From: Alphaproteobacteria bacterium
Lineage (GTDB): Bacteria > Pseudomonadota > Alphaproteobacteria > Sphingomonadales > Sphingomonadaceae
NCBI GenBank assembly: GCA_030431435.1
Contig: JAUIJI010000012.1
Location: forward strand, 1-37,138
DNA length: 37,138 bases
Direction: 5' to 3'
This document shows positions 12,153 to 35,516 of this stretch, one piece after another (position 1 is the stretch's first letter; every line of letters starts with the position of its first letter). Both the position numbers and the translations under genes were made by a program. A model generated the notes under the pieces. It had not been told where the DNA came from. It did not search any database and saw nothing but the letters and a program-made list of their open reading frames with translations.

Positions 12153-12280
12153 CCCTCCCGCTCGCGGGAGGGTCGCGAGACTTGGCGAGCCACCGGCGAG
12201 CCCTAGTCGCAGCGGGGTGGGCTTTTCTGGCTCCAACATTTCACTGGCCCACCCCCAACCCCTCCCGCAAGCGGGAGGGG
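12153..12280. repeat. Family A palindromic element (long arm 12153-12222, spacer, inverted short arm 12247-12280)
   Basis: ccctcccgctcgcgggaggg hairpin + ...cgagactt...ctagtcgcagcggggtgggc, then gcccacccccaacccctcccgcaagcgggagggg; the arms are closed by ggggtgggc/gcccacccc. Confidence 0.9.
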
Positions 12281-18888: not shown

Positions 18889-18903
18889 TCGCGCGACCTG
18901 TCC

Positions 18904-18924
18904 CCCTCCCGCCTGCGGGAGGGG
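18904..18924. repeat. Family A single hairpin
   Basis: ccctcccgcctgcgggagggg. Confidence 0.7.
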
Positions 18925-27446: not shown

Positions 27447-27536
27447 GCCCACCCCTAACCCCTCCCGCAAGCGGGAGGGGGACATGGTTGCGCCAGGAAT
27501 CTCCCCTCCCGCTTGCGGGAGGGGCCGGGGGTGGGC
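27447..27536. repeat. Family A palindromic element (short-short)
   Basis: gcccacccc-taa-cccctcccgcaagcgggagggg...cccctcccgcttgcgggagggg-ccgg-gggtgggc; 9-bp outer inverted repeat enclosing two 10-bp hairpins. Confidence 0.92.
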
Positions 27537-27581: not shown

Positions 27582-27941
27582 ATGCCCGAATGGACACCCC
27601 GCAACACCACCCGCGCCCGCACCCTGCGCCGCGAGGCGACACCGGCAGAACGCACGCTGTGGGAGCACCTGTCACGCGGCCAATGCGGGGCAAAGTTCAG
27701 CCGCCAGATGCCGCTCGGCCCTTACTTCGCCGATTTCCTGTGCCGGTCACTCAGGCTGGTGGTGGAATGCGACGGCTTCAGCCACGACCTCGAACCGGAG
27801 AAGGACGCCCGCCGCGATGGCTCGATGCAGGCCGAGGGCTACACCGTCCTGCGCTTTGCCAATGAGGACGTGCTGCACAACACCGAAGGCGTGGTGCAGA
27901 TGATCAGGCAGGAAGTAGAACGCCTGAAATCCAAGACCTGA
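27582..27941 (+). CDS. DUF559 endonuclease-domain protein (DUF559-A)
   Basis: RARTLRREATPAERTLWEHLSRGQCGAKFSRQMPLGPYFADFLCRSLRLVVECDGFSHD...VLRFANEDVLHNTEGVVQMI. Confidence 0.9.
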   Translation: MPEWTPRNTTRARTLRREATPAERTLWEHLSRGQCGAKFSRQMPLGPYFADFLCRSLRLVVECDGFSHDLEPEKDARRDGSMQAEGYTVLRFANEDVLHNTEGVVQMIRQEVERLKSKT

Positions 27942-27944
27942 AAA

Positions 27945-28010
27945 TCCCTCCCGCTTGCGGGAGGGAAGCGAGACTTGGCGGCTCCCCCGCCTAGTCGCAG
28001 CAGGGTGGGC
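27945..28010. repeat. Family A long arm
   Basis: tccctcccgcttgcgggaggga-agcgagacttggcggctcccccgcctagtcgcagcagggtgggc, starting 3 bp after the DUF559-A stop. Confidence 0.9.
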
Positions 28011-28221: not shown

Positions 28222-28345
28222 GGGAATTAGGTATACTGTCCCCCGAATTCTATGGGTGAGGGAATTAGGTATACTGTCCCCGGAATTCTATCCCCGGAAT
28301 TCTATGCCCGGAATTCCCCAGGTATACGGAATTCCCCTGAATTCC
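28222..28345. repeat. 32-bp direct repeat gggaattaggtatactgtccccSgaattctat (2 copies) plus truncated fragments
   Basis: Copies 28222-28253 and 28260-28291 (one mismatch), partial ccccggaattctat at 28292-28305, further gaattc-containing remnants to about 28345. Confidence 0.9.
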
Positions 28346-28365
28346 AAAAAGCACCAGCATTCCCC

Positions 28366-28495
28366 GGGAACAACCGGGAATAACCGGTAATAAGCGGTAA
28401 TAAGCGGTAATAAGCGGTAATAGGCGCTAATGCAGGCTAATGCAGGCTAATGCAGGCTAATGCAGGCTAATGCAGGCTAATGCAGGCTAATGCAG
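28366..28495. repeat. 13-unit decamer tandem array
   Basis: gggaacaacc, gggaataacc, ggtaataagc x3, ggtaataggc, gctaatgcag x7. Confidence 0.97.
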
Positions 28496-28532
28496 GCGGC
28501 CCAACCATCAATTCCACTCAGTGGTCAACTCA

Positions 28533-34684: not shown

Positions 34685-34966
34685 TTAGTCGCCCTTGCGC
34701 GATTTCGATCCGAAGAAACTGCCGCCGCCCAGAACGGTGATGCCCAGGAAGAAGCCGAAGTCATACCAGCCGCCGGTATTGGGCACGGCATAGACCGCGA
34801 TGTCATCGCTGAAGAGCGAGCCGATCCACGCCCACGGGAAAATGAACCCGTGCCACAGGCCCCACCAGAAGCCGGGCACATCGCCGCCTGATGCGACGGT
34901 GGCGTCGATCTGCGATGCGCAGGCGGAGAGGAGGAGGGTTGCGGCGAATAGCGCATATACCCTCAC
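34685..34966 (-). CDS. Small putative lipoprotein
   Basis: Possible GTG start at 34966 inside the family B element; VRVYALFAATLLLSACASQ lipobox; HGFIFPWAWIGSLFSDDIAVYAVPNTGGWYDFGFFLGI. Confidence 0.7.
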   Translation of the reverse strand: MRVYALFAATLLLSACASQIDATVASGGDVPGFWWGLWHGFIFPWAWIGSLFSDDIAVYAVPNTGGWYDFGFFLGITVLGGGSFFGSKSRKGD

Positions 34967-35045
34967 CCTTTCGGCGCTGTGCGCCTCATTCCCTCTCCCA
35001 TCGGGAGAGGGAGGGGCCCGCCGCGTAGCGGTGGGAGGGTGAGGG
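34960..35045. repeat. Family B 86-bp cloverleaf palindrome, copy 1
   Basis: ccctcaccct...agggtgaggg termini enclosing GGCGC-tgt-GCGCC, TCCCTCTCCC-atc-GGGAGAGGGA and CCCGCCGC-gta-GCGGTGGG. Confidence 0.95.
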
Positions 35046-35060
35046 GATCTGTCCATGTCG

Positions 35061-35426
35061 CTACTCTCCATCACCAGCCCGCAAATGCAAAGCAATCGTC
35101 TGCAAGACGCCATCAGTGTTCGACAAAACCTCATTGTTCCAGAAGCGCAACACACGAAAACCCCGCTCTTCGAGGTAGCCCGTCCGGCGCGCATCCCCGC
35201 TTTCCTGCACGGCATGCTGGCCGCCATCCACCTCGACGATCAGCTTGTGCCGGAAGCTGAGAAAATCCGCAATGAACGGCCCGACCGGAGACTGCCTGCG
35301 AAACTTGGCGTGCGGAAATGCCTTGCGCAGTTCGCGCCAGAGCACCTGCTCCGCATCGGTGGCCACCTTACGCAAACGGCGGGCGCGATCGACCGCACCC
35401 GCCGGGGAATTTGCATAGGTTCTCAT
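35061..35426 (-). CDS. DUF559 endonuclease-domain protein (DUF559-B)
   Basis: RARRLRKVATDAEQVLWRELRKAFPHAKFRRQSPVGPFIADFLSFRHKLIVEVDGGQHA...VLRFWNNEVLSNTDGVLQTI. Confidence 0.92.
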   Translation of the reverse strand: MRTYANSPAGAVDRARRLRKVATDAEQVLWRELRKAFPHAKFRRQSPVGPFIADFLSFRHKLIVEVDGGQHAVQESGDARRTGYLEERGFRVLRFWNNEVLSNTDGVLQTIALHLRAGDGE

Positions 35427-35430
35427 TTGT

Positions 35431-35516
35431 CCCTCACCCTTTCGCGGCTTCGCCGCTCTTTCCCTCTCCCACCGGGAGAGGGAGGGGCCCGCCGCGAAGC
35501 GGTGGGAGGGTGAGGG
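35431..35516. repeat. Family B 86-bp cloverleaf palindrome, copy 2
   Basis: ccctcaccct...agggtgaggg termini enclosing GCGGC-ttc-GCCGC, TCCCTCTCCC-acc-GGGAGAGGGA and CCCGCCGC-gaa-GCGGTGGG. Confidence 0.95.

Follow-up and report, generated by a model that had tools for sequence, protein, structure and literature searches.

DUF559 nuclease genes associate with BoxC/PIT-type repeats in many bacterial phyla and may encode the cognate nucleases of these repeats

Described repeat systems closest to the studied locus

To our knowledge, BoxC/PIT elements have been recognized in E. coli since the 1990s and occur in hundreds of genomes, and their origin, their function and the agent that moves them are all unknown. 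Work on BoxC/PIT/TM_ECO elements (Hoyne 2000, 2002; Holder 2015, PMC4666352) lists 23 TM_ECO copies in strain MG1655, and formation of a triplex by a single strand in vitro has been demonstrated for TM_ECO only (PMC4666352). Two observations by Holder et al. count against the idea that we favor below, namely that DUF559 proteins are the nucleases of such repeats: DMS footprinting revealed no stable triplex in vivo, and mobility genes were not found near the E. coli copies (PMC4666352).

Another system that bears comparison is that of REP/REPIN sequences and RAYT genes. It shares with the DUF559 loci a gene flanked by inverted repeat units, dispersed paired copies, repeat numbers that reach hundreds per genome although driver genes are one or few, and several repeat types per genome, each type being tied to a gene. 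However, RAYT (TnpA-REP) is a HuH tyrosine (Y1) nuclease and REP a GTAG-tagged hairpin, whereas DUF559 is a PD-(D/E)XK, Vsr-like protein and its repeat a mirror-tailed triplex unit with a G-rich tail. By analogy, the DUF559 system would work like REP-RAYT, but it is not a member of that group, as nuclease and repeat are both unrelated. Finally, CGTC-tagged REPs are palindromic repeats of alphaproteobacteria, reported without a dedicated transposase (Di Nocera 2013, PMC3733652). Similar-looking repeats also occupy the glyS site discussed below (in the relative G012), but their sequence is unrelated and their motif is absent from the 8-mers enriched beside DUF559 genes.

In the window (the whole stretch of 37,138 nucleotides that was analysed, from a member of Sphingomonadaceae), a DUF559 gene lies between two 86-bp elements (Table 1). 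Their core, CCCTCTCCC-loop-GGGAGAGGG followed by GGGTGAGGG, is like that of BoxC/PIT/TM_ECO, and in both cases copies are intergenic and some form inverted pairs. Unlike in that class, two units share one stem in the window, and the second loop, which in BoxC/PIT/TM_ECO has about 3 nt (TTA or CCG), has about 22-25 nt and contains a covarying hairpin. Because the short second loop is missing, we regard the window units as a double-unit variant of the BoxC/PIT/TM_ECO triplex class and not as a standard member.

Table 1. Positions of repeat elements, genes and other features in the window
Feature	Position	Strand	Remarks
Element 2, upstream of DUF559 gene	35431-35516		compact double unit
Element 2, closing arms	35431-35440/35507-35516
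Element 2, H1	35444-35448/35452-35456
Element 2, H2	35461-35470/35474-35483		triplex hairpin
Element 2, H3	35488-35495/35499-35506
Element 2, candidate third strand CCCTCACCC	35431-35439	-
Element 2, candidate third strand GGGTGAGGG	35508-35516	+
AGGGTGAGGGACAA	35427-35440	-	G-rich element tail; sole Shine-Dalgarno-like sequence ahead of DUF559 ATG
DUF559 (PF04480) nuclease gene	35061-35426	-	121 aa, Vsr/EDxHD-type PD-(D/E)XK fold
Element 1, downstream of DUF559 gene	34960-35045		architecture as element 2
Element 1, closing arms	34960-34969/35036-35045
Element 1, H1	34973-34977/34981-34985
Element 1, H2	34990-34999/35003-35012
Element 1, H3	35017-35024/35028-35035
Small lipoprotein gene, downstream	34685-34966	-	inferred start GTG, inside element 1 tail (VRVYALFAATLLLSAC...)
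Second DUF559 gene	27582-27941	+	E 3.4e-34; own distinct repeat type
Type-C unit of second DUF559 gene	27448-27480	-	CCCACCCC-TAA-CCCCTCCCGCAAGCGGGAGGGG
Type-C unit of second DUF559 gene	27503-27535	+	CCCCTCCCGCTTGCGGGAGGGG-CCG-GGGGTGGG; tail toward gene
Downstream type-C unit	27945-28009	+	second hairpin inserted ahead of GGGTGGG tail
Dispersed facing-tail type-C pair	12153-12280		no DUF559 gene between
Lone hairpin	18903-18924
Short tandem arrays	28277-28497		just past second DUF559 locus; TCCCCGGAATTCTA x2.9, CGGTAATAAG x5.7, GCTAATGCAG x7.2

The two 86-bp elements of the window fold as cloverleaves

The original prediction described two 86-bp direct repeats, each a cloverleaf with a closing stem and three hairpins (H1, H2 and H3). 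Both copies are indeed present in the same orientation, and folding them as single-stranded DNA reproduced the cloverleaf (z = -7.2 and -5.5 for the two elements, with no shuffled sequence folding as well). Their differences are, as had been claimed, confined to H1, the loops and one linker base, and amount to 9 positions in all: the swapped H1 pairs 15/25 and 16/24, loop positions 20, 21, 42 and 67, and linker position 29. In H3, proposed to have an 8-bp stem, one of the 'pairs' is G.T. Two points needed correction. The elements are direct repeats as wholes only; each is an internally inverted double unit, and thus the units that adjoin the gene on its two sides have opposite orientations. 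The second point, on covariation, is taken up below. H2 of both elements is the pyrimidine/purine hairpin CCCTCTCCC...GGGAGAGGG, and a third strand that mirrors the purine arm (GGGTGAGGG) is present at both ends of both elements. An Rfam search with the elements gave no match at the gathering threshold, only sub-threshold microRNA look-alikes.

The spacing is tight, with 4 bp between element 2 and the DUF559 ATG and 15 bp between the DUF559 stop codon and element 1. We infer from the sequence that the tail AGGGTGAGGGACAA may be the ribosome site of the DUF559 gene. It is plausible to ask, then, whether the flanking elements simply control this gene as part of a regulatory or toxin-like cassette, the dispersed copies being by-products. 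The absence of any other Shine-Dalgarno-like sequence before the ATG speaks for this idea, which we nevertheless consider quite improbable: units are found on both sides of the gene with the downstream one inverted, up to 322 copies occur per genome and nearly all of them lie away from the gene, and PIT elements were found to be without promoter or terminator activity, at least in the words of Hoyne & Maher that are quoted in PMC4666352.

On the other side, the start codon of the lipoprotein gene (within 34960-34968) was inferred from orthologues such as that of G012, and the in-frame GTG fits a signal peptide. Element 1 may have replaced the native start region of this gene.

The gene between the elements encodes a probably active Vsr-like protein

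The gene between the elements matches PF04480 (DUF559) with an E-value of 7e-37 and 126 bits, the curated cut-off being 20.6. Its product is probably active, since those residues invariant in 44 relatives that we checked are present (R19, E26, Q45, D54, E65, D67, H71 and D78). Its AlphaFold2 model has a pLDDT of 84.6 and most closely resembles 3HRL (N. gonorrhoeae NGO0050; profile E-value 1.5e-39), the homing endonuclease I-Bth0305I (1.8e-4; TM-score on the query 0.66) and Vsr (0.11; 0.52). The likeness to the latter two is one of fold with weak sequence similarity and, unlike them, the window gene is bracketed by repeats and no intron host was seen.

DUF559 genes of many phyla are flanked by hairpin repeats

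We gathered 80 DUF559 loci with protein similarity as the sole criterion; their sources include Proteobacteria, Chloroflexi and Gemmatimonadota, among other groups. With no motif preselected, the 8-mers showing the strongest enrichment in the 200 bp around the genes include CCTCTCCC/CCCTCTCC (about 42-43-fold), GAGAGGGA, ACCCTAAC and CCCTCACC (24-fold). A C/T-over-G/A hairpin was observed within 150 bp of 62 of the 80 DUF559 genes, compared with 10 of 300 control genes, i.e. other genes on the same contigs (odds ratio 100, p = 7e-44), which supports the earlier proposal that DUF559 goes with a structured repeat. The hairpin definition was fixed after the first 80 loci had been read; the later sets were tested afterwards and are independent of this choice. 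Units also lie beside two Deinococcus DUF559 genes and one of N. gonorrhoeae, probably the NGO0050 orthologue. The association is general and recurs in many bacterial phyla. (The 2.17 Mb records listed as N. gonorrhoeae plasmids, NZ_CP119142.1, are chromosome-sized and probably mislabelled.)

The association was also observed to be clade-specific. One (strong) DUF559 clade of Sphingomonadaceae has flanking units at 48 of its 52 genes, as opposed to 4 of 21 in other DUF559 subfamilies. The repeat type tracks the protein tree, requiring 39 changes vs 60 after shuffling (minimum 52), and paralogues within one genome bear different repeat types, as seen in three genomes including the one to which the window belongs. 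One might suppose that the repeats are merely fragile recombination sites and that DUF559 genes arrived as passive hitchhikers, by recombination between them; TM_ECO loci are, after all, more often rearranged among E. coli strains (PMC4666352). Such an explanation, already disfavoured, seems to us very improbable when so few other genes (10/300) and so few members of other DUF559 subfamilies (4/21) are flanked, when repeat type follows the protein tree and when paralogues in one genome differ in their repeats.

The only DUF559 protein with a proposed function that we found is VsrA of Caulobacter, read as a mismatch-repair enzyme (PMC12907096), and this counts against a role in repeat processing. 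Its functional tie to a cytosine methyltransferase (PMC12907096) speaks for a rival reading, in which the nuclease serves methylated or mismatched motifs and the proximity of repeats is unrelated to its activity. We give this very little credence, as it predicts neither the inverted bracketing nor the clade-wide coupling of repeat type and protein.

As for the second DUF559 gene of the window, gene coordinates suggest that at least 9 genomes of the genus have it in synteny, several kb downstream of nrdA. A scan of the window's own genome for type-C hairpins returned none, but its pattern required an arm and loop other than those that can be seen in the window, and the zero therefore carries no information.

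The DUF559 gene of E. coli lies beside a BoxC element

The E. coli DUF559 gene, ycjD, is located at 1351407-1351760. The gene ends about 170 bp before TM_ECO no. 9, and its last codons overlap with a degenerate unit. The probability of such adjacency by chance is about 0.003 over the whole genome, and roughly 0.02 if only intergenic DNA is considered (the latter is an estimate and was not computed). At least 80% of the ycjD locus is found in one place in only 3333 of 5426 E. coli genomes, and in three others that were inspected the fabI-sapF interval carries efflux genes instead of ycjD. We found no paper naming a link between DUF559 and repeats or a partner protein of BoxC, in a search that left subscription journals mostly uncovered.

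Stem and tail of the repeat unit change together

The basic unit consists of a pyrimidine/purine hairpin, 2-3 nt, and a G-rich tail. The tail is a mirror image of the stem in the same unit, and each A of the stem is faced by A or T. In 96 of the 206 units near DUF559 genes the tail matches its own stem perfectly, vs 19 when tails were exchanged between loci whose stems differ. Of these 96 perfect third strands, 92 are spaced 2-3 nt from the hairpin. Among 164 asymmetric stems, we observed a mirror match in 91 and a direct copy in 9, and the mirror relation is kept through about 30 stem variants. Judging from sequences alone, this co-change of stem and tail is what an antiparallel purine-motif intrastrand triplex would require. 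As purine-motif triplexes do not form in RNA, according to Semerad & Maher 1994 as far as that work is cited in PMC4666352, and the covarying feature is a triplex of this kind, single-stranded DNA is likelier than RNA to be the acting form. A reading of the repeats as a regulatory RNA family was set aside, since the mirrored tail is consistent with a purine-motif triplex of DNA.

In Sphingomonadales, a second hairpin stands in place of the short spacer; its sequence varies and its pairing is kept. Covariation in this hairpin (H1 and H3 classes) was 0.202 vs 0.055 and 0.433 vs 0.160 after shuffling, with no shuffle as high, and slid controls gave far lower values. The original prediction had inferred covariation from the two swapped H1 pairs; two copies alone cannot prove it, but the wider set does reveal it, and these values support the accompanying claim that the folded form matters. 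Lack of covariation and lack of proximity to DUF559 genes had been named in advance as refuting outcomes, and both tests were run and passed.

Repeat copy number is linked to the DUF559 clade, with exceptions

A link between gene and copy number was observed at the level of whole genomes. Among 60 genomes of Sphingomonadaceae, sampled at nearly one per genus, the number of CCTCTCCC hairpin copies correlated with the best DUF559 score (Spearman 0.66). In 150 Pseudomonadota genomes, at least two copies were present in 24 of the 33 that have the clade vs 9 of the 117 that lack it (p = 2e-13; p = 9e-6 when collapsed to 49 families). The reversed control pattern was not found in any genome scanned. 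The highest counts, 322, 203, 132 and 127 copies, come from genomes with 2, 1, 4 and 1 DUF559 genes, respectively.

Some genomes do not conform, and they count against the notion that DUF559 proteins drive the repeats. G151 has 57 CCCTCTCCC hairpins and no gene of the DUF559 clade, its repeats being either a relic population or the product of a different driver. Repeats without the gene also occur in G064 and in 9/117 genomes overall, and some genomes have the gene without this repeat type.

Repeat units face the gene, and the nrdA-linked gene is an old resident

The bracketing has a definite geometry. Tails were observed to point to the gene in a ratio of 53:11 upstream and 50:13 downstream, upstream and downstream loops are reverse complements of each other at 19 of 65 genes (vs 1.2 in shuffled data), and the end of the DUF559 reading frame often extends into the downstream hairpin. 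Of the dispersed pairs away from DUF559, 19 have facing tails, 6 are back to back and 3 tandem; those with facing tails look like gene-free derivatives of the gene cassette.

The window DUF559 gene lies directly after nrdA. The nrdA-adjacent DUF559 genes (of Sphingomonas, Sphingobium, Hephaestia and others) belong to a single clade, with 2 changes on the tree, and the nrdA-linked gene is absent from most members of the genus. It is thus an old resident, vertically inherited and often lost, which counts against DUF559 as a spreading agent. In G012 and other relatives, the nrdA site has neither gene nor elements, and the spacer is too divergent to define insertion ends. We found no clean insertion with a target duplication, and this also counts against our preferred reading. 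Frequent jumping of DUF559 genes between repeats was rejected for the nrdA copies, as they form one clade.

The clearest case of repeat mobility is glyS, where in-frame inverted pairs of different repeat families occur at one codon site in different genera; in three genomes this site has only 12-15 bp and no pair. Across Sphingomonadaceae, many palindromic repeat families that are unrelated to one another have inserted in frame at the glyS linker site. Such an insertion hotspot is unusual for an enzyme that is presumably essential.

These data bear on a homing scenario, in which a free-standing homing endonuclease cuts gene-free facing-tail pairs and gene conversion inserts the gene between the tails; the repeats would then serve as targets only, and the enzyme would not move them. 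The nearest characterised enzyme, I-Bth0305I, is a homing endonuclease, the gene-free pairs share the facing-tail geometry of the gene loci, and DUF559 genes are scattered and lost among relatives. Still, both flanking units are intact, and a carrier would therefore retain its own target; the single clade of nrdA-linked genes gives no sign of jumping between repeat loci; and hundreds of repeats, together with their coevolution with the gene, would be left unexplained. We thus consider homing unlikely.

Proposed mode of action and its significance

We think it reasonably probable that DUF559 proteins are the cognate nucleases of BoxC/PIT-type repeats, which process and spread them in a manner similar to that of REP-RAYT systems, the enzymatic action being inferred. 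In this model, the unit would fold into a hairpin and triplex in single-stranded DNA (of the lagging strand, of repair or of incoming DNA), and the Vsr/homing-endonuclease-like DUF559 enzyme would bind the folded unit and nick at or near it. Repair or recombination would then copy the unit, or a pair with the gene, to new places. The gene itself would persist at a fixed place and drive the repeat population, as RAYTs do for REPs/REPINs, and in Sphingomonadales a covarying second hairpin would have taken the place of the short loop that links the stem to the third strand. The association, its clade specificity, the bracketing geometry, the joint variation of stem, loop, tail and protein type, and the link to copy number are observed; that the enzyme recognizes the folded single strand and nicks it, and that repair then copies the unit, is inferred. 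We know of no activity of any DUF559 protein on such repeats, and this counts against the model.

A more far-reaching version is possible, although we advance it only tentatively and incline slightly to doubt it: DUF559 (YcjD) proteins may be the first known case of nucleases specialized for intrastrand-triplex DNA, recognizing a hairpin with its third strand in single-stranded DNA and spreading BoxC/PIT-type repeats across many phyla, and thus constitute a second, independently evolved REP-RAYT-like system, one present in E. coli K-12.

The DUF559 family looks like the hitherto missing partner of BoxC/PIT elements. The link offers a direct handle on them: ycjD is found in a standard laboratory strain, a crystal structure of a homologue is available (3HRL), and some natural strains have the gene and others lack it. 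If the proposal is true, DUF559, a family of unknown function, would gain a substrate, and triplex DNA would be a recognised biological signal in bacteria.
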